A stretch of DNA of 64,000 nucleotides, from contig JAJQJQ010000008.1 in the NCBI GenBank assembly GCA_028622995.1, positions 2,046,001 to 2,110,000 of the forward strand, in the 5' to 3' direction. How positions within the stretch are numbered: position 1 is the stretch's first letter; each line of letters starts with the position of its first letter. Position numbers and translations under genes: made by a program. The notes under the pieces are model-generated. The model was not told the origin of the DNA, searched no databases, and saw nothing but the letters and a program-made list of their open reading frames with translations. The DNA comes from Panagrolaimus kolymaensis. Lineage: Eukaryota > Nematoda > Chromadorea > Rhabditida > Panagrolaimidae. Positions 42,502-63,624 of this stretch are shown in pieces.

Positions 42502-44812
42502 ATGTCAGAAAAAAACATCACAAGTAGTGCTAGCAGCGACATATCCAAGACATATATGGAGAGTCAATGTAAAAATTCTATTGAACCTGCTTTAATAAAG
42601 GTAAATACCTAAATTTGTTTTAATAAATACCTCAAAAGTTTCGAGATATTTTTTAGCCATCAAAAGGATCACAAAACAGCAATTTAAAAGGAGCTGAAAG
42701 TGGAGAAGATGGCGACACTAAAACTATGTTACTTACTGATCTTCCAAATGAAATCCTTGTATGTTTTTTTATATCTGAAAAAAGGATTTTTTATATTTCC
42801 TCCCTTGCTTAGTTTCTTTATTTAAAAAGTTTTAAATTTTTAGGGTAAAGTTTTGAATCAAGTTTCTTTTGACGATCTCTTCAACCTCGAAATTGTTTGC
42901 AAACGATTACAAAATTATGTTTTGAATTTTGTTTGGCCGATGAAAGATTCATTAACCCATGAATCAATCATCCAATATACTAATTATACTAATATTCCAC
43001 CACACAAAAAAATGGATTTAATGGTGTGCACATTGACAAAAAACCGAGCTTGGCGTTGAAGCGCAATAATTTTTCAAAGAGAGATTGGCAATATTGAGGT
43101 GCTAAATAATAACGCTTAAAGCACCTCAGGCTTTGTAATCTTTTTTTATTATATTAACATAATTATATCCAAAAAATATAAAGTTTTTCGTAATTTCCTT
43201 CAAAAAAAAATTATTTTTGCTATTTTGATGGAAGCCTTTATTCGCAAAAACACCAAATTTAGACCTCCCAGCGCGAAAATAGCTCTTTTCAACCAAAAAG
43301 AACAAAAAAGTAAAGTAAGGCAAGCTTGTTAAGTAATACATATTTATTTATCTTCATATTTTTGACATTAAATACCGTTAATTCTTGTTTTAAATAAAAC
43401 CAAGAACTTAATCCGATTCGACCAAGACAAAAATCAATCAACTCGATTGGCTTTCAAAACGCATCAAATTTTGAGTTTGTAAAAAAAATGTGCACACCCT
43501 TAAATGTAGTGGAACGAAAATATACAAAGACATAAAATTACCATCGAATCTGTAAGTTGTAAAACCATTTACCATCCTCTAACTACATATGTCAAGAATA
43601 TGTTTTAGGTGAAAGCAGTTTTGTCACGAAGCACAAATATTCGAAATATTGATCTCTCCTATTATTCGCACACTCTTAAAAAAAAAGTTTGTTTACTACT
43701 CTCAATGGTGCCAAACCTTATTAAGCTCGATTTATCACATATACGTCTATTAAATCCTAACCTAGTTACCATTGCTCATTCGTGTCCAATGTTAGAAGAA
43801 ATTTCTTTGGAATGTTGCTTTCCTTATTATGAAGAATATAATGATGCTTTAATAACACTTTGCGAGAAATGTCCAAATATAAAATATATGAATCTCGCTG
43901 AAAATAGGATTGGCAATTTTTTTGATTTCCTTCCTCTTGGACTTCTTTATTTGAATCTCGATTTTTGCAATATTGCATTAAATGACATGAATGTTTTAAC
44001 TCAAAGAGCTCCAGACCTTGAAACGCTTATTTTGGATTATAAAGAAACCTATGAGCCAATAACTGATATGAATATTTGGCTTTCGAAATTGACTAAACTA
44101 AGATTCTTACAAATTGATCAAGTATCACCACGATCATCGATTCCACCTTTAGATTTCACAAATTTGCTTGAATTAGAGAAGCTTAGTTTATGGAGCAATT
44201 ATTTAGTAAAAATTTCAACGTTGGAATCACTTCAAAATTGCCCAAAATTAAAATCTTTGGATTTAAGCCATAATCCTCTGGATAGCAAAATGACTTTGGA
44301 AATGTTAAAAAAATGCAAAGCTTTGAAGTATTGCGATTTCAGTGAATGGTCAGATTTGAATGATAACCTTATTGATTTTGTTCAACATAATCAAATTGAA
44401 GTAAGCTTAATTTAAACAAAATATTCCCTAATTTTATTTTTAACTTTAAGTACTTAAATCTTGACAACTGTGATGATAAACTAACAAAAGATTTATTAAA
44501 ATCACTTATTAATGATTGTGAAGTATGTTTTTAATAAAAAATAAGTAAATTTTGATTGCTAAACTTTTTTAGTCACTCAATTATTTAAATATGTGGTGCC
44601 ACAGAAATAATAATTACAGCGAAATTTTAACATCTATTCTTTCTGAAACTCTTACTCCTCCACGAAAAAATATTTTGAAAATAATTGTTCATCCAAAAAC
44701 GACGATATATACTTTCTTTTCAAAATGTAAATGGTGTAAAGTTATACGATGGAAAAGGAGCGATCCATCGCCAAGGCCATTTCCCGATTTCACCGACGTT
44801 CAAATCCAATAA
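42502..44812 (+). pseudogene. F-box/LRR protein, tandem copy 1, interrupted by a transposon
   Basis: Start MSEKNITSSASSDISK (42502), then a short basic exon, then the F-box: MLLTDLPNEIL / GKVLNQVSFDDLFNLEIVCKRLQNYV (from 42844). The exon is cut at 43021 by a TTAA-type element (43022-43499); downstream the family tail (RHKITIES) resumes before a donor at about 43551. The LRR exon is long and intact (43609-44415: LIKLDLSHIRLLNPNLVTIAHSCPMLEEISLECC...), followed by a small exon and a last exon ending at 44812 (TPPRKNILKIIVHP...CKWCKV). The insertion adds a stop soon after IPPHKKMDLM, so the F-box and LRR halves are uncoupled unless the insert is spliced out. Intact members would be SCF substrate receptors. 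Confidence 0.75.
43022..43499. mobile_element. TTAA-type MITE inside an F-box exon
   Basis: Ends TGGTGTGCACATT and AATGTGCACACCC are inverted copies with one mismatch, flanked by TTAA (43018-43021 and 43500-43503). The 478-bp interior has no coding capacity and contains a short hairpin (GAGGTGCT ... AGCACCTC, about 43095-43127). The two undisrupted tandem copies lack it at the same place, which defines the insertion precisely. Confidence 0.88.
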
Positions 44813-53505: not shown

Positions 53506-53809
53506 TTAATTTACTGCTAAAGAATATATTTTAAGATAGCTGCAAATTTCTTTATGATTAAAATCAATCCAATCAAGCTTTTGACATTCTTTCGAACAAT
53601 ATCGGGCAACTAAACATTTAGCACATCGCAAAGTTTCAGCTTCTTTTCCACAAAAGTGGCATCGTTTTTGGGATAATGAATTATCTAAAAATCAAAAAAG
53701 ATTTTTAATTCCACTGAATTTTATTTTTTAAAAAGGTTTTTTACCAATATTAATATGAGCTGGACCTTCAATTCGAATAATATTTCCGTCTCTTGCTTTT
53801 CTCATATAT
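53506..53809 (-). pseudogene. 3' end (MYND exon) of HEPN-family gene split by a transposon (copy 8)
   Basis: The MYND exon ends at 53506-53508 (CHFCGKEAETLRCAKCLVARYCSKECQ...YSLAVN) and is preceded, across a short intron, by the end of the beta-region exon (RKARDGNIIRIEGPAHINIG). That exon is cut at 53809; its continuation (FRPNCMISIINPY) is found at 63625 onward, beyond the 9.8-kb element. The duplicated target bases are ATAT (or TA). The gene enters from beyond the right edge of the window, so its 5' part cannot be judged. Confidence 0.88.
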
Positions 53810-54494
53810 AAAGCGGTAAAATCTAAAATTTTTTTGCCCGGTTCAAAATTTTATCAGACACCCTGTTTTTTTGTAAATTTTTTTTGCAAGTCATCATTTC
53901 ACAAAATACTCGTTGTTTTGTAAATGAATTTACAATTTTACTATCATTTCCTCTAACATTTGTATATTTGTAAAAAATCCAAAATTTTTTTACAAATTGA
54001 CAATGTCTGGTATTTTATCTAGAAAAATGTAATTTTTTTTTACAAAAACAACCGAAATTCCTAAACATTTGATATTTTGTAAAAAAATTTACAATAAAAC
54101 CACTAGTTTCTCAAACATGTGTTATTTTGTAAGAAATATTTACAAATTTATATGTATTTCAAAAAACTAAGATATTTTGTAAATCTTTACATAAAATGCA
54201 GTGATCGTTTTGTAAATGGATGATTTACAAAAAATGCAGTGATCGTTTTGTAAATGGATGATTTACAAAAAATGCAGTGATCAGTTTGTAAATGGACGAT
54301 TTACAAAAAATGCAGTGATCATTTTGTAAATCGAAGGGAAAGCAAAATAAAGCGGCGATAACCCAGCAATCCACTCAAATCTTTCGTTTTTTGTATGCAA
54401 ATATTTTCAAAGTATTTAACTTTTTATTTTATATTAATGTTGTCAAAAACATAACAATTAATTTATTCATAACAAAAACAAAGCAATAAATATA
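53810..54494. repeat. Left terminal inverted repeat
   Basis: It pairs with 62935-63620. The outer about 65 bp and inner about 430 bp match closely; a middle part (about 53875-54060) has diverged in sequence but keeps the same style: repeated TTTGTAAA/TTTACAAA palindromes. From about 54197 a 38-bp unit (GCAGTGATCG, then TTTTGTAAAT, then GATTTAC) is repeated about 3.5 times. These are probable subterminal binding sites for the transposition protein. Confidence 0.85.
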
Positions 54495-54522: not shown

Positions 54523-57258
54523 TTATTTTTTCCCCTTTTTTAAACGAGAAGATTCCCCAACTAAAGATTTTGTTACAGTATTCATCATTTTTTGCTTTAT
54601 TATTGGTGATTCATTTGATTTTCTTTTTCTACCAGCTCGAGTAGCCTTTTGTGTTTTGATAATTTCAGGAGAATCCTCGTAGATCGTTTCGTTTATTGTG
54701 TTTTCTGCGGTATTTTCACCTTTTTCATTAGCAACTACCTGCTTTCTTTCAACATCGTCTTCTTCTGCTTTTTCCCACATTCTGCTTACCAATTCATTGT
54801 TTTGTTTGAGAAAACGTTCGATATCTTTATTTTCTGGATCAAGAAGAGAATTTCCATCATGAGAGTTAGTCACCATTGTATCAATCAATTCATTATTTTT
54901 TAACACATCCAACAAAGTTTCAAATGGTGCTAAATGAATTTATTTAAAAGATTATTTATAATCGAAAAAACTAACGTGGATTGAAGTTTTGCAATTCATG
55001 TACTGTATCAAAATAATTCTTCATATCATCGTCATTTAGCAACTCCCTCGACTTTTTTCCAACTTCCAAAAGCTTTTGTAGTTTATTGAAATCAGGTTTG
55101 AAAGGCATTGGCATTAGAGAAAGATCTGGCATTGTCTGAAAAATAAATCCATAAGAAATGTTAGCAATTGTTTAAAAAAAACTAACATTAAAGACGTCTA
55201 AGTCCCAATTTTCTGAATTAGGCACGCATCGCAACCACCGACTCGATCGAATATAAGGAGCAACTTGAACTTTAACTACTGCATCTAAAACTATCATGTT
55301 TTTAGAAACTTAAAAGAAACACTAACCTGCGTTGACATAAATCCGAAACATGTGTTGTCCTTTCAATTTGCCAAAGTTGTTTAAATGAAGCTTCAAAATC
55401 GAGTTAAAATCATAAACGTTCAAGAGATGCGTGGCTTGTCGAACACCAGATAAGGTATTGAATAGGTTGAGCATAGCTAAAGTTCCATATTTTAAAACAT
55501 TTATTAATTTAAAAACAAATTACCTTTTGGTGATAAACATTCATTCATATTTAATTTTTGAGAGAACCTTCCAAAAGCACCATCGATATCAATGTGTGTA
55601 TGTCCAACTTCATTAAAGCACACGTAAAACTCTTTGATCTTTGTTTGTTTTTTTAGCAACCACCCTAAAGAGCCCAGTACATTGTAACATTTGTTAGCAC
55701 TGCAGTTATCCAACTGGATTGCAACTACCACCGGAATTACTTTGCACATAACAATGGAATTGATAATTTCTGAAACAATTGAATTTGAACCACCAGGAAA
55801 AGCATCAGCAACATTGAAATAACCATCAATTAAAAATCCATGACCATCATCGGCTGAAAAGATAACATAGTGTATCATCTACAAAAGTAAAACCTTACAT
55901 TCTCTATGTATTATTATTGCATTTAAATTAAAGAAAGCCATGTCAGCATCACCAAGCGTTTTTGTTCGGTTTCTATTCAAATGTGGAAGTTTAGTCTTAT
56001 TTTTGCTCATACCATCATGAGATAAGCTTAGCAAACTTCCCGGTCTTTGTCTTGAAAACATCTTTCTTACTTCATAATCAGCTCGGTCAGCTCTGAAACT
56101 ATGTTTGTTAAATATAATAATAAGTAAAAATTACTTGATGTTTTCCCAATGATTCTGACGATGCCTTCGAACTTCCTCTTTGTTTACAACTTTATTATGT
56201 TGAGCACAAATTCTCAAAGCACAACAGTTCTTACACTTAGTAAAAGAGTTCGTTTGTCTCCAATGTAAAGATGGTTTGATACCATTTAAATAATAATTTG
56301 GAAGCAATCCTTTATCAGGTTGAACGAGTTGCATAAAATCTCTTAAAAATCACCTATGATTTACACTAAAATACCAAAATAACTTACTTTTTTGTAATTC
56401 CAGGTGGCATCAGCATCCCTTCACATGTCGGTAAATCCTGTGCATAATCTTCCAATAACAATACTATTTTTGCCATCGTCTCATAATATTTGCAACTTCC
56501 ATGCGTAATGCTATCATTTCCATGAAGAGAACCTTGCATAGCTCCAATATCAAGTTGTTTCATAAAGACTTTCAACCTGAAATTTAATAATTCATTGGCG
56601 TGTTACTTCTTTTTTTACTTACCTATTATCAGGTATTATATAAATTGCAGCAAAAACATTAACACAAACCTCGCCACCTGCAACTACCGTTGATAGAACA
56701 CCATTATTATAACATTGTCGTACCAAAGTAAATTGAAACTCTCGCATTTGTGCTTTATCAAGAGGAAGTGAGCATCGATATTTTTGGATTAAATAGCTAA
56801 AAAATGTGTTTTAGATATCTTTATATACTAATCACTCACATCGAAAGGAATCTTGTGCAATACTTTGCACAGCAACTACCAACACCAATAATTTCAAGAG
56901 GTGTTGCAGGCTTAAATGTACCGGTGAATAAAGCGTCAAGATCTTTGTTGAATTTTTCGATTTCTTCTATAGCTGAAAATAAAGAAGATATTTATATTTA
57001 TCGTTTGTACAGGTACTTACTTTTATTGAAGATATTTTCCTCAACAGACTTTTGCATGCTATCTTCATCGTCAAAAGCATCATCATAATCATCCAACCAA
57101 GTATCTTGAGTTGACGGATTTTGAGAATTGTAAATACTTTCTGCTGCAACTTCCTCCGAAAAAACATCATCATTTGTTTCTTGAGAAGTATCAACATTGT
57201 TTGTAAAACTATGTTGAGAAGAAGTAGCAACTTCCACAGGAACATCAGAACTTTCCAT
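54523..57258 (-). CDS. RNase H-fold transposase-type protein (DUF7869-like)
   Basis: It starts at 57258 (MESSDVPVEVATSS, acidic N-terminus) and has about nine exons, ending at 54523 with a Lys/Arg-rich tail (RAGRKRKSNESP... RLKKGKK, nuclear signal). Middle exons include a Cys/His cluster (CKNCCALRICAQHNK) and then three acidic motifs spaced as in RNase H-like transposases: LSLSHDGMSKNKTKLPH, VAIQLDNCSANKCYN and FNEVGHTHIDIDGAFGRF. This trio is the hallmark of the widespread 'DUF7869' family of mobile-element proteins (recalled, not searched). All exons are open in frame. The likely role is strand cleavage and transfer at the TIRs. Second gene of the left unit, about 180 bp beyond the knuckle gene. 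It carries at least six sense copies of the GG[T/A]AGTTGC motif. Confidence 0.72.
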
Positions 57259-57440
57259 CTTTTCTATTAATAACAATGATTTAAACTAAAAATGGTTTAA
57301 AAGTGTTTGATAAATTAAGAAAGCAATAATATTTTAACAGATTAAACAAAGTTAAAGGCAGATAAAGGTAAAATAACAAAAAGTGTTTATTTCAAGAACA
57401 AAACAAAAAGCAACAACAAAAAGATACAATAGCAAAAAAA

Positions 57441-58517
57441 TCAAAGTTCTGGATATTTGATGTGAAATTGATGACCACCACATTGATAACAAGCTACTAC
57501 CATTGAGGACAATTTCTGACAAAATGAGGTCCACCACATTGATAACAAGCTACTACCATTGAGGACAATTTCTGACAAAATGAGGTCCACCACATTGATA
57601 ACAAGCAACTACCGATTGAGGACAATTTCTGAGAAGATGAGGACCACCACAGTTGAAGCATGCTAAACCATTCTCACAGCTTCTCCATTCATGATTTCCT
57701 TGAAGACACAGATGACATACTTTAGATTTTGTAATATTTGGACAATTATCATATTGATGACCTTTACCGAAGCAATGTGAGCATACAGCTAAAAAATGAA
57801 AAGTTATTTCAATATTATGTGCAAAAACTCACAATAAGGACAATTTCGTGCATAATGTCCTTCTCCATTTCTTCCATAAGTTTTGCACCTCAAACAAACA
57901 ACCATATTTGGACATTCTTTATTATTGTGGCCATCACCCAAGCAATTTGAACAATCATAAGGTTCTTCTATAAAACTAATATTAGATTATAACGTTTATA
58001 GATGATACCTTACCATAATTTAAGAAAGCAGAAGGTTGTTTTCCATTAGCAACTTCCTGATCATCAGTCGTCCATTCATTATCAACAACTGGACCATCCA
58101 CTTTATCCACTAAAGTTTCCCAAGGAATTTGTTGAAGAACGTCAGCTTGAGCACGAGCAAAAGGGAGATGATGTTCCTATAAAGTAACGATATACGAGAT
58201 AAGACAAATAAAACATACGCTCAAGACCTTTTCCATAAATTCAAATACAATGTAGCAAACATTTGCAACTCCCCGTCCAAGAGTAATAGCAGGAGCAGAA
58301 AGACATACATCAAGAGTTTCAATAATTCTTTGAAGAAATTGACGATCGACATCCCTCATTCTTTTTCTACGCTTTGTTTCACCATCCTAAAATGAACCTG
58401 TATTTAAAACAAATGGTAAGTAAAACATACAATTATTGTTAAAAGTTCGCGAAGTCTTCTGATCACCTTGTGAAAATCATGATTGATACGTTGACGAGAA
58501 TTTCCATTCTGTACCAT
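57441..58517 (-). CDS. Gag-like CCHC zinc-knuckle protein of the transposon
   Basis: It starts at 58517 with MVQNGNSRQRINHDFHKVIRRLRELL. Helical N-terminal half (RDVDRQFLQRIIETLDVCLSAP... NVCYIVFEFMEKV), acidic linker, then a C-terminal run of zinc knuckles: CSNCLGDGHNNKEC, CLRCKTYGRNGEGHYARNC, CSHCFGKGHQYDNC, CHLCLQGNHEWRSC, CFNCGGPHLLRNC, CYQCGGPHFVRNC. Such knuckles bind single-stranded nucleic acid. In the array a 56-bp tandem duplication with a missing base puts a TAG at 57553-57555; the older frame would have run on to a TGA at 57441. The protein as read ends at 57553. It is first gene of the left unit and its 5' UTR and start codon mirror those of the right unit. Candidate binder of the element's repeated 9-mer (inference). 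Confidence 0.75.
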
Positions 58518-59064
58518 CTTTGCAACTACCTGACCACTTGTTAGAAGAATAAACGATACAAAGTTCAAAGCGGAAAGAAAAAAAAGTAATAAATGTTTCA
58601 GAAAAAAACGCGAAAAAAGTTATGTTTTTACGGAAAAAAAGGGAACGGAAACGAAAAATGAATGAAACTGATTCTTTATTCTTCCAGCAAATTTTTTTGG
58701 CATTTTGCTCCCAATATTTTGCTTGCAATGAGCTCTTTTTCAAACTTTGTAAAATTTTTCATTTCTCTTTCATCTTTCATTTTCAATAAATTTTTTGAAC
58801 GTTTGCATGTTTTTTATAATTGAATTATTATTTACCTGCTAAAAATAATTCCCCCGATTGTTAATTAAGGTACTTGTATCGTTTTTACGTATGTACTTCC
58901 TATTTTTTCGTTTCCGTTAGCTTTTTTCTCGTAAAAACATAACTTTTTTCGCGTTTTTTTTCTGAAACATTTATTACTTTTTTTTCTTTCCGATTTGAAC
59001 TTTGTATCGTTTATTCTTCTAACAAGTGGTCAGGTAGTTGCAAAGATGGTACAGAATGGAAATG
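58499..59064. promoter_or_regulatory. Mirrored central bidirectional promoter
   Basis: Arms of about 160 bp (58499-58658 and 58905-59064) are inverted near-copies. They span the first codons (MVQNGN on both sides), a 5' UTR with one GGTAGTTGC placed four bases before the ATG, and upstream sequence with a T-run and an ACGCGAAAAAA box. The unmatched centre (about 58659-58904) separates two divergent starts. The left and right units would therefore be expressed together from equal promoters. The inverted repeat could alternatively be an origin or recombination site. Confidence 0.8.
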
Positions 59065-60314
59065 GTTCACCCAATGGAAGAAATGGAGGAAACGATGAAG
59101 CTACAGAAGGTTTTCATGCTGCAATGGAGATGATTACAGGTGTTTGTGATTCAACCGCTGAATATTTACAACAGATCGTGCATGAATTTCAAAGATTGGG
59201 TATGATAGTTGCTAAAGATGGATTACATCAAGATGAAATGAATGGTGAAGGAAGGGAAGTTGCAAATGGTGAAAGTTTTGGTGATGACGAGGTAGTTGCT
59301 AATGTAAGCTTTTTACTTTTCTCATGCTTTTATTTTTGGAATACTTTAGCATTTTGATGTTGTTGTCTTTGTAAAGACTTACTATTCAATGAATCCTGAA
59401 TTGGTGGATGAACATCGGAATGTTTTTATAATGTTGAAAAATCTTTTGAATCCTGAAAACTGTTATGTTCATGGTTCAGCTTTACAAAGAACGATGATTC
59501 GAACTTCTGATTTAGATGTTGTCTTACGTTATGAGAAAGATTTCGAGGTAGTTGCTAGTAAAGTTATCCCACATGTTTCGGATTTTCGAATTATTCATGA
59601 TGCACCCGTAAGTTCTTTATAAGTTTTTCATGACTTATCGTGTTACTTTTAGGTAAAGCTTTGTAAATTTACTATTGGTAATGTGAAAGTGGACTTGTCT
59701 GAAGATGGAGGTGTTATCGATGGAGTGCAAGCTGGTAACTTCTTTTATGGAATATTTCGTCGAAGAGAAGATATTCGTGTAATGGCTCTTATCCTCAAAC
59801 AATCTGGAGAATTCTTTGGAACGTATGGAACTAAGAACAAAATGATCGGAGGGTTTGTTCTTTTCCTTTTGATACAATTTAATGTTCTTTATTTAGTATT
59901 GGACTCACAACTTTACTGATTTATGGTGCCCAACAAATTCAACTCCTTCCGAAGTTTTTGGTCAGTCGAATGGGCTATTTCAAGGATTCAAATTCAACGT
60001 TTAACGATGCCTATTGGAAAGAAATGGAAGTTGCGACCGAATATGATCTTACAAATGCTGTTTTTATCAAACGATTTGGCATGATTTTGGAAGCCATTTG
60101 CAATACAGACTTCAAGATTACGATCAACGTCATGGCTGAAGAACAACAAGTACCTCTATCTACTCCAATGGTGATCTTTGCTCCTCCACGAAATAAAGAG
60201 AACGCTGCGTGGATTATGAAGTATAAGCGAAGGAAGTTGCTGCTTGAATATTTCAAGAAGATCTTGGGTTACTGGAAAGAAGATCCATGGAGCTTTTTAA
60301 AGCGAATTAAATGA
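59046..60314 (+). CDS. TRF4/Cid1-like terminal nucleotidyltransferase of the transposon
   Basis: It starts at 59046 with MVQNGNGSPNGRNGGNDEATEGF. Four exons join in frame (...EVVAN-HFDVVVF...; ...HDAP-VKLCKF...; ...KMIGG-IGLTTLL...). The catalytic fold shows the Pol-beta signature: YVHGSALQRTMIRTSDLDVVLRYE (G-S, then D-x-D), third acid in KFTIGNVKVDLSEDG, and a helical C-terminal core (DIRVMALILKQSGEFFGTYGTKN... GLTTLLIYGAQQIQLLPKF) like the PAP-associated region of non-canonical poly(A)/poly(U) polymerases. About 365 residues. It likely adds nucleotides to RNA 3' ends; ATP or UTP preference cannot be read. Such enzymes include RDE-3/MUT-2 of C. elegans, which tails transposon RNA for silencing (family knowledge); an element-owned copy is unusual. 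First gene of the right unit. Confidence 0.78.
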
Positions 60315-60504
60315 ATTCTCCGTTGTTTTATGAAGTTTTGTTTTTTTCCTTTAATTGTTTTGTACTTTTTTAAATTGTTTCGTTTTGTTGCACATAAATA
60401 ATATTTGTTATCTTCTTTTGTGTATCATTTTACCGTGGAAAACGTTTGATTAAGCATCTTATTATCTTATCTTAGCTACGTTTTACTTACTATTTCTTTC
60501 TTAG

Positions 60505-62861
60505 ATGTCACCGTCAGATGAAGAATTCGATGGCACGGCCCTTTTGGCAAACAAATCCAGTTCGCACAGTACTGCATCAGCCGTTTTTCAGCAAACTTCA
60601 ACGGACTCAATGTTGGATGCGGTAGTTGCTAATGTTGTAATTTTCTGCTTTTATCTTTATTCATTGTTCATTTTTTAGATTCTATCGCCTGATACCGCTA
60701 AAACAACAAAATCAAAGAGAAAGCGAAAAGCTCTATCAACTTCTTCACCAAAAAAACAAAAACCTATGATAAAGATTCCACAAGTTAAAGAACACGATGT
60801 CATTAAAGAACAATGCAGAGTTCAGGAATCTTCTTTGGCAGTTGCTAGATCTGAAATCCATTTTGTTGATGCACAATTACAGTTGGAACAACTTGTACCG
60901 TACACTTTTTATAGAGAAATATGTCAAAAGCATGTGGATGATTTTGTTCGACTGTTGCGTGAAAAGAAGTTTGATTTCAAATTGTGCATCTTTACTGTAT
61001 GTCAACATTCAGATGGAAGGAAATTTATTGTCTTGGATGGTAATCATCGTCTCGCTGCTATGTTAATCGCTTTCGCTGGAGGGAGTTGCCAAGTCTCATG
61101 CAGGATGATTCAAAAAGTTTTGACAAACAGCCAAATGTTAGCCTTATGTCATGATCTTACAAAACCATCTCAATCTCTTGAATTGCGCTTTTTGGATCAA
61201 GTAAGATATTACTAAGATTAATTGAAAATATTTTATTTTTTCTAGGTATCAATTCTTCGCAATTTTATGGGGGAAAAGAATATCAAAACATCTTCTAGAG
61301 TTTATCCTGAACAAGTTGAAATGGCAAAGAAACTTGCTTACGGTGCTAACGAATATGTGGTGGAAGTTGCTCAATTACCTGAAAATGATTACAAGGTTGT
61401 TTTCCAGTACCTAAAGGCTTTTCAAAATGACCAAGTACCTGTAAGTGTTTCTTTTATGGATTGATTTATAATTATTTTTATAGGATTACCCAGGTGCAAC
61501 GTTTCACCATCATGCATATTTAACACATTCAACGAATTTACCTGATTTGAAAGCTAATTCATTCTGGAAAAAGCTTTTTCGTCTTTATAAAAAGAATACA
61601 AAACTTGTTATGACTGCTTTGATGCCTAAAGAAGATGGAACCTTTCGAACATTGAAAGAAGTTGTTGAGGTAAATTTTTAAAAAAGCTGCTTTATTAGTA
61701 TAGTTTTTTTTAGCATTTCACTAATCCTCCACGATTCCTTGATGCATTAAATTCGTTGGGTATTGTGTATTTTAATTTGGAAGTTGCTAGTGAAGCTTTA
61801 GCTGGTGGAATCTTTACTGATAATCAACTTTATACAGCTTTAAAAAACAGAAGGTTTGATATTTCTTTGGAAATAAATTTTTAACTCTTTATTTTATAGT
61901 CGCTTTGCTCATGTTGGAAATGGTACTCAAATGTGCACCGAAGAACAAATCAAAGTGAAGCTACAAGCAATCTTAAAAGATAGCATTGTTGTAGTAGATG
62001 AAAGTACCTTTATTTCATACACATTAGAATCGTTCACCGATGTTTTGACATCTTCTTCATTTTTCTTCATTTACAGGCCTTGGGTACGTTTTTGAAAAAT
62101 TATGATTTTATTAAACTTGTATTTTTAGTTAACTGATGAATTACTGGAAAAGGTAGTTGCTTGTTTAAAACCTGATGGATTACTGATTATTTTGGGTCAA
62201 GTTGATCTCAAGGATTTTTGCTCCGCTCTGAACTTTACAAAACCTACTATAAACTTTACTATAATGCTGGAAGAATGTATTTCAGGTAAACTATTTTTTC
62301 ATTTTTATTGAATCTTTTTTTGTTTTAAAGAAGTTATTCATGATGAACCTTATGATAACTCCATGGATGTTTCAATTTTTGTTGTTAAACAAAGCTTGGT
62401 TGTACCGATGGAAGTTGCTTTTGGTGACAGAGTTCCTAAACTTACCTTAAACAAAATTGTCACAACTGAAAGTTTTAACCAAATCTTCGCAACTATTCTT
62501 CCACTTGAGGGCATTTGTAAACGTGATGTTATGGTAGTTGCTCCACCTGCAAGCAGTAAGTTGACATCAAAATAATTTATAACAATGGTTTGTTTCAGAG
62601 ACTAAACATTTTACTCAAGTCGTTAACCTTATGTTTGAAACAAAAAGAGCGAAATTTATATATTTTACTGAAGAAGATCGAAAGGCTATAAGAAATTGCA
62701 TCAACGAAGTTGTTTCAACTCCTATTTCAACAAGTAACGTTAAAGAAAGTACAAAAGATCTCGGCACCACAATGGAAGTTGCAACTGATTCTCATTCTTC
62801 ACCTGCTGTAATACATTCTCCTACTGCCGCTTCTCAAGATGCATCTCTTAACCAATCTTAA
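60505..62861 (+). CDS. ParB-like domain nuclear protein of the transposon
   Basis: It starts near 60505 (MSPSDEEFDGTALLANKSSS) and has about eight small exons, ending at 62861. A basic nuclear signal (TKSKRKRKALSTSSPKKQK) precedes a ParB/sulfiredoxin-like domain: QLVPYTFYREICQKHVDDFVRLLREKKF... FTVCQHSDGRKFIVLDGNHRLAAMLIAF, where the DGNHRLAA motif corresponds to the nucleotide-binding box of ParB-type proteins. A long second part contains FAHVGNGTQMCTEEQIK... FFFIYRPWLTDELLEKVVACLKPDGLLIILG, which resembles the end of a Rossmann methyltransferase fold; this is weak. ParB-methyltransferase fusions are common in phages. Ser/Thr-rich C-terminus. A DNA-binding or partition-like role at TIRs is inference. 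All exons open. Confidence 0.65.
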
Positions 62862-62934
62862 GATCTTATAAAATAACAACAACACTATGAACTTTGTTTT
62901 ATTTGAACGTTTTTGTTTTTTTGTTTTATTTATT

Positions 62935-63620
62935 GCTTTGTTTTTGTTATGAATAAATTAATTGTTATGTTTTTGACAACATTAATATAAAATAAAAAGT
63001 TAAATACTTTGAAAATATTTGCATACAAAAAACGAAAGATTTGAGTGGATTGCTGGGTTATCGCCGCTTTATTTTGCTTTCCCTTCGATTTACAAAATGA
63101 TCACTGCATTTTTTGTAAATCGTCCATTTACAAACTGATCACTGCATTTTTTGTAAATCATCCATTTACAAAACGATCACTGCATTTTTTGTAAATCATC
63201 CATTTACAAAACGATCACTGCATTTTATGTAAAGATTTACAAAATATCTTAGTTTTTTGAAATACATATAAATTTGTAAATATTTCTTACAAAATAACAC
63301 ATGTTTGAGAAACTAGTGGTTTTATTGTAAATTTTTTTACAAAATATCAAATGTTTAGGAATTTTGGTTGTTTTTGTAAATTTTTCAAAAATCTTTTACA
63401 TTTTAATATAATTCGAGTGTTTTATTGCTATAATGTAAATTTTTTAAAAATTCTTTACAAATATCCATTTTATAGAAGGATCCTTGTTAATTTGTAAATG
63501 AATTTACATCTTTACCATCATTTTGGCAAACACATGTATATTTGTAAAAAAATTTACAAAAAAACAGGGTGTCTGATAAAATTTTGAACCGGGCAAAAAA
63601 ATTTTAGATTTTACCGCTTT
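62935..63620. repeat. Right terminal inverted repeat
   Basis: Mirror of 53810-54494, including the 38-bp subterminal array (about 63085-63235) and the terminal 65 bp. The middle (about 63370-63560) differs from the left copy but keeps TTTGTAAA/TTTACAAA pairs. The 3' end of the ParB-like gene lies about 75 bp before it. Confidence 0.85.
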
Positions 63621-63624
63621 ATAT

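Follow-up and report, generated by a model that had tools for sequence, protein, structure and literature searches.

In the TRAMP complex (Trf4/5-Air1/2), a knuckle protein is combined with a terminal nucleotidyltransferase. Dense, polar short words are familiar from DNA uptake sequences, Chi and KOPS, which act in DNA genome-wide and differ as dialects between relatives. Published accounts describe how the knuckles of LIN28 bind GGAG and recruit TUT4/7 (PMC6240794), and how ZCCHC14 recruits TENT4 to viral RNA of hepatitis B virus (HBV) and human cytomegalovirus (HCMV), protecting that RNA (PMC10537345). Here we analyze a 64-kb stretch of the Panagrolaimus kolymaensis genome, referred to throughout as the window, in which a 9.8-kb transposon with terminal inverted repeats (TIRs) holds 23 copies of the word GG[TA]AGTTGC, all of them sense and none antisense. 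We propose that this word serves as a tag, specific to the transposon family, on mature mRNA, and that its readers would be a CCHC-knuckle protein and a nucleotidyltransferase encoded by the element itself. We judge this reading about equally apt to hold or to fail.

Ten exact copies lie on the minus strand (54731-58522) and 13 on the plus strand (59033-62774), with the strand switch at the element centre. An earlier note on this DNA had given about 23 full copies, all sense, minus-strand to the left of the centre and plus-strand to the right; this description was exact, with 0 exceptions, and the antisense count, which the note had thought might equal the sense count if the idea were wrong, is 0. 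Its figure of about 7 near copies was too low, as the element contains 10 further one-mismatch forms, all sense. The rest of the 64-kb window has 0 exact copies and 8 one-mismatch forms, four on each strand. A better consensus is GGNAGTTGC, with 27 copies in the element, 27/27 sense and 0 antisense. These copies are distributed over four genes, arranged as two divergent pairs between TIRs of ~0.7 kb; the splice models were made by eye and have introns of 36-51 nt. The features are as follows.

53806..54492, no strand: left TIR, pairing with 63546-63624 (79 nt) and 62927-63380 (454 nt); 3.8 tandem 38-nt units
54523..57258, minus strand: gene B, DUF7869 transposase-like; 10 predicted exons, in-frame stop in exon 6
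54731..58530, minus strand: 12 GGNAGTTGC tags (word positions), 10 of them GGWAGTTGC, starting at 54731, 55039, 55721, 56492, 56680, 56872, 57146, 57227, 57605, 58049, 58265 and 58522
57553..58517, minus strand: gene A, with five CCHC zinc knuckles ahead of the stop; 5 predicted exons, stop TAG within a 56-nt tandem repeat
58500..59063, no strand: divergent centre, with the 5' leader as an inverted 141-nt duplication (89%); one tag per arm
59033..62782, plus strand: 15 GGNAGTTGC tags (word positions), 13 of them GGWAGTTGC, starting at 59033, 59255, 59291, 59547, 60026, 60232, 60621, 60837, 61081, 61362, 61779, 62152, 62410, 62533 and 62774
59046..60314, plus strand: gene C, nucleotidyltransferase-like (GSALQRTMIRTSDLD); 4 predicted exons
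60505..62861, plus strand: gene D, ParB/sulfiredoxin-like (VLDGNHR); 9 predicted exons, relative in Panagrolaimus davidi
62927..63624, no strand: right TIR, ~0.7 kb

Across the 265.8-Mb genome, GG[TA]AGTTGC occurs 2,206 times (1,100 and 1,106 by strand), and a reversed control word is commoner, with 3,633 copies. The genome-wide density is thus ~8 per Mb, compared with 23 copies in 8.4 kb of the element. Host exons with the word at the density of the element, which the earlier note had named as a refuting outcome, are precluded by this rarity. The best sense-strand 9-mer with two wildcards scores 131.7 in the window element; 18 control blocks from the same genome reach 12.1-35.9, and 8 shuffles do not exceed 15.2, patterns made of fewer than three kinds of letter being excluded from the scoring. 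The top control score, 35.9, belongs to a block at locus C5 that itself bears a one-stranded word.

Codon usage in the predicted coding sequences (CDS) indicates that selection on the tag acts at the nucleotide level and that protein sequence does not explain the copies. The [EV]VA tripeptides in the four window proteins are written xxG-GWA-GTT-GCN in 18/18 cases, the preceding G included. Synonymous shuffling of the window CDS (500 times) gave a mean of 2.56 exact copies (maximum 7) against 21 observed, and of 2.72 GGNAGTTGC copies (maximum 7) against 25 observed; in the second family described below, the same procedure gave 1.89 (maximum 7) against 28 copies of that family's word, ACGNNCTAG, the exon-junction copy counted. 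The earlier note's view that protein sequence offers no explanation is therefore upheld, while two of its supporting statements hold in part. All three codon frames are indeed used, but less neutrally than had been suggested: 18 of the 21 exact CDS copies share one frame (VVA/EVA), 2 occupy a second (GSC) and 1 the third, and the 25 GGNAGTTGC copies in CDS divide 20/3/2. Two further copies by either count do lie in the 5' leaders, each starting 13 nt upstream of the ATG, but they represent one event because both sit in the inverted 141-nt duplication.

A repeat selected as peptide, [EV]VA in the window family and NVL, NEL or NDL-like in the second family, would fit the frame shared by 20 of 25 CDS copies of GGNAGTTGC and by 23 of 27 single-exon CDS copies of ACGNNCTAG. 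This frame bias is, however, aided by stop codons, with TAG barring one frame in the second family and one for the T variant of the window word. Together with the copies in other frames, the 7 copies in untranslated regions (UTRs), the fixed synonymous choice and the shuffled counts far below those observed, this leaves selection on the peptide scarcely credible.

The second family was found by protein searches of the 266-Mb genome. At C1:9851231-9860817 (hereafter C1) lies a diverged relative with all four genes in the same arrangement, the A, B and D stretches of which are 24-38% identical to those of the window (tblastn). Gene C gave no tblastn alignment at E 0.01, just a 39-residue match at the GS...DxD stretch (E 0.004). 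The window word GGNAGTTGC is present there as a single copy in 19 kb. An open k-mer count at C1 instead gave CTAGAACGT, the positions of which then showed a strand flip, and a polar-word search then ranked ACGNTCTAG first. In the form ACGNNCTAG, the C1 word has 32 copies, 32/32 sense, with 18 on the minus strand to the left and 14 on the plus strand to the right of a flip at the centre. There are 0 antisense copies in the element, 0 copies in the rest of the 19-kb stretch and 0 in the 64-kb window; the genome-wide count is 1,817.

The 27 CDS copies of ACGNNCTAG divide over the frames as 23/4/0, the third frame, in which TAG would stop, being empty; two of the 23 were read from the open reading frame (ORF), as the splice model of C1 gene B slips there. 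Five copies fall in predicted UTRs, two of them at the same site in the two TIRs, and a tag starts 10-54 nt downstream of the stop codon in 4/4 C1 genes. One further copy is formed only across an exon-exon junction of the gene A model. The words are thus dialects, two families in one genome each having its own, apparently private word. Two words in one host speak against a general host reader and suggest a family-specific one.

Placement points to mature mRNA as the molecule that would carry the tag. Of the 59 copies in both families, 52 are in predicted CDS, 7 in predicted UTRs and 0 in predicted introns (24 introns with 1,072 nt in the window element, 19 with 904 nt in C1). The chance of 0/59 intronic copies is ~6 in 10,000 if copies fall evenly, and ~3 in 100 if half of each short intron is free to take them. 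If the word were an exonic enhancer of splicing or export through which host proteins recognise the many short exons, it would likewise be exonic and sense, and two tags stand at exon ends: exon 1 of both right-hand genes ends in GGTAGTTGCTAAT, as the earlier note had correctly observed. We nonetheless regard such an enhancer as quite unlikely, given that two families of the same host use different words, that some exons are tagless (such as C exon 3 and D exons 4 and 6) while UTRs also hold copies, that the word is absent from the rest of the window, and that a further relative, C31, is also split by introns and has no word.

Along the messages of both families, tags recur on average every 250-350 nt, mostly within codons. 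In each of the four arms, the spacing is more regular than the mean of random placements (P 0.063, 0.0009, 0 of 20,000 and 0.044); the departure is clear in two arms and borderline in two. Fairly even spacing along DNA, together with complete polarity and its central flip, could also reflect a polar DNA signal, in which B or the ParB-like D would read oriented sites toward both TIRs, for example by guiding a translocating or spreading complex; gene D is ParB/sulfiredoxin-like by the name of its relative. Such a signal should find non-coding DNA easier to use, yet none of the 59 copies is intronic, and one C1 copy forms only through splicing in the gene A model. Moreover, C31 has B and D and no word, and none of the four element genes was recognised as coding for a helicase or translocase. 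A polar DNA signal is therefore improbable in our estimation.

Shorter relatives show how the words persist. DNA searches of this genome, in which only the best candidates were scored so that copy counts are lower bounds, place at least 1 full copy and at least 1 deletion derivative (C40) in the window family, at 95-98% identity. C40 keeps 7/7 of the GGNAGTTGC sites that it shares with the window element, one of them altered, at the free third base only. The earlier note had asked whether other copies would lack the motif; this close copy retains it, while the diverged C1 has another word and C31 has none. C5 and C8 are short deletion derivatives of the C1 family with 9 polar tag copies each. 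C51 is a fragment: between TIRs that are 99.3% alike it retains the 3' half of gene B, with 64-65% identity to the C1 gene. It contains ACGC..TAG 5 times in sense and 0 times in antisense, against 0.06 expected under a second-order model, an expectation that is optimistic because the pattern was picked by the search itself. Alignment of the two sets ACGCGTTAG of C51 opposite ACGTTCTAG of C1 at one site; of the 5 C1 tags in the aligned stretch, 1 meets a C51 tag in place, 1 is 6 nt off and 3 are unmatched. The comparison shows in C51 what appears to be a drifted version of the C1 word. We take C40, C5, C8 and C51 for offspring of full elements, although none such was found for C51.

The relative C31 narrows the choice of reader. 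It has genes B and D with introns, TIRs that are 93.5% alike and a ~1.9-kb gap in gene B. A word search with spaced patterns, up to 3 wildcards and dyads found nothing clearly above controls in C31 (best 17.6, compared with 12.1-35.9), and neither a CCHC nor a nucleotidyltransferase motif was found there, even with relaxed patterns that detect both in the window element and C1. Thus, once deletion derivatives and fragments are set aside, three elements remain in which the word goes with genes A and C, all being present in the window element and C1 and none found in C31. C31 contains B and D and no word, which leaves A and C as candidate readers. At C12 and C36, the searches showed just a stretch resembling DUF7869 and no word. 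A CCHC match near C36b was rejected as a gene A, as it lies in a separate ORF and looks like a retroelement gag. A further gene A relative is present at C19:2875272-2875984 (41% over 84 residues).

Based on these data, we infer a plausible course of events. The CCHC zinc-knuckle protein encoded by gene A would bind the tag in the element's messages, and the nucleotidyltransferase encoded by gene C would act at the 3' ends of the tagged messages. The family's own mRNAs could in this way be picked from those of the host and of other families, and then stabilised or otherwise handled apart; the benefit to the element, which we also infer, may lie in stability, export or escape from silencing. Among the options that the earlier note had listed, the best supported is that of an RNA tag meant for the knuckle protein or nucleotidyltransferase that the element itself encodes, and an exonic splicing enhancer and a polar DNA signal fit less well. 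More tentatively, each family may write a private 9-letter word in every message and encode both a knuckle reader and a tail-adding nucleotidyltransferase, word and reader drifting together into dialects, with a spacing that would let host-cut fragments be recognised and re-tailed; we consider this fuller version possible, though on balance doubtful.

A tag that is family-specific, sense and spread across all transcripts, so that most fragments bear one, could also serve a family-specific programme of small RNA and Argonaute, pairing with the word and either licensing the mRNAs or baiting silencing. We think this unlikely, because neither element contains a complementary copy (antisense 0) and 7-8 fixed bases would make a short guide.

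Several observations weigh against an mRNA tag read by A and C. The link between the word and these genes comes from a small number of elements, two tagged families and one negative, and that negative is older and broken, so that A and C could have been lost from C31. C31 also has a faint AAC.TCTA (6 sense, 0 antisense, 0.37 expected), and C7b, which has gene D and in which searches with spaced patterns, up to 3 wildcards and dyads found no word, is not a clean negative because relaxed patterns give a nucleotidyltransferase-like match upstream of D, on the strand of that gene. Conversely, C40, C5, C8 and the C51 fragment bear tags without intact A and C genes. Polarity is not independent at the two C1 copies that form one TIR pair or at the two window copies that form one leader pair. 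Folding of the window and C1 messages does not put the word in loops: the window tag is unpaired at 0.340, compared with 0.311 for 9-mers of the same composition and 0.441 overall, and the C1 tag at 0.486, compared with 0.408 and 0.450.

The identities of the two candidate readers also bear on this point. By pattern, each of the two A proteins has 5 CCHC knuckles, but the zf-CCHC match of window A (16.2 bits) is under the Pfam cut-off of 20.8 and C1 A has no match. The 18 matches of C1 A in PDB are weak and in their majority retroviral Gag or nucleocapsid chains; AIR2 is third (E 0.024), after a Gag and a nucleocapsid protein. Window gene C matches Polbeta at 19.8 and 17.4 bits, under the Pfam cut-off of 26.9, and its MTPAP-like match is under cut-off as well. 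For C1 gene C, no nucleotidyltransferase was found in Pfam, nothing in PDB and no relative in the protein database. A GS...DxD stretch is present in both C proteins, which share little outside it.

The other two genes are as follows. Gene B of the window matches PF25273 (DUF7869) at 64.2 bits (cut-off 26), and no match to a MULE transposase was obtained in the 4 gene B stretches scanned. Its in-frame stop, on the minus strand at 55879-55881, is directly ahead of the DUF7869 core, with splice-like letters only 15-20 nt apart beside it (55879-55898); the site would be either a nonsense change or a very short intron. A single-sequence search of the protein database with gene D returned one relative, from Panagrolaimus davidi, named ParB/Sulfiredoxin domain-containing by its source and without [EV]VA in the protein; the less sensitive alignment search returned none.

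The outer TIR ends are alike, being ATATAAAGCGG in the window element and ATATAAGACGCC in C1 and C31. ATAT stands at both ends of 4/4 insertions with ends found (window, C1, C5 and C31), either as a target site duplication or as part of the TIR; no 9-bp duplication was seen beside the window element. The tandem 38-nt units of the window TIRs (3.8 each) are at 54186-54331 and 63088-63233. In the C1 family a 25-nt unit with TTTGTGCAGCACAAA takes their place, so the sub-terminal repeats are also family-specific. The end of gene A is a 56-nt tandem repeat of a knuckle (57441-57675), and its stop codon lies inside a one-mismatch tag copy (GGTAGTAGC at 57549).

Repeats of other kinds were also noted. 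At C5:2403000-2422000 (mostly 2408697-2421970), TAAAACTG has 29 copies on one strand and none on the other over 19 kb of largely non-coding DNA; eight other 18-20 kb stretches have 0-1 per strand, and the 64-kb window has one on each. A satellite of 136-bp period at C7:3689353-3696780, with 55 copies of CAGTTGCTA in the stretch taken, adjoins a gene-D relative. Within the window, positions 700-53000 contain recurring gene families (the peptide RILNHCRI appears six times in six-frame translation), and three leucine-rich-repeat-like ORFs are located at 43609, 48496 and 50847.

If the proposed tag is real, a DNA transposon could tell its own messages apart from all others through a word in its coding sequence. 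A eukaryotic mobile element would then carry a code for self-recognition, and it would offer a natural system in which to follow the co-evolution of an RNA word and its reader. In the open-licence literature searched, neither the element nor the tag was found described; the idea is already known in parts, and as a whole it is not known to us.

The composite TIRs with internal motifs are reminiscent of Tm1, a Mutator/Foldback element of root-knot nematodes. Tm1 has a 496-residue FLYWCH-MULE transposase and 9-bp duplications (PMC3169594), whereas the window element combines a DUF7869 transposase-like gene with three others. Unlike DNA uptake sequences, Chi and KOPS, the word described here keeps to the predicted exons and UTRs within a single family of elements. 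The likeness to LIN28-TUT4/7 is that a CCHC-knuckle protein recognises its RNA through a short word and recruits a nucleotidyltransferase, and both kinds of protein are predicted here. The putative arrangement differs from LIN28-TUT4/7 and TRAMP in that both proteins would be transposon-made, the word recurs densely and is specific to a family, and none of the element's genes was recognised as coding for an Mtr4-like helicase. The ZCCHC14-TENT4 system would resemble it in that parasite transcripts with a short element recruit a tailing enzyme and are protected. In that system, the proteins are those of the host and ZCCHC14 binds via its SAM domain and a pentaloop (PMC10537345); in the transposon, a linear word would be read by proteins that the element itself encodes.

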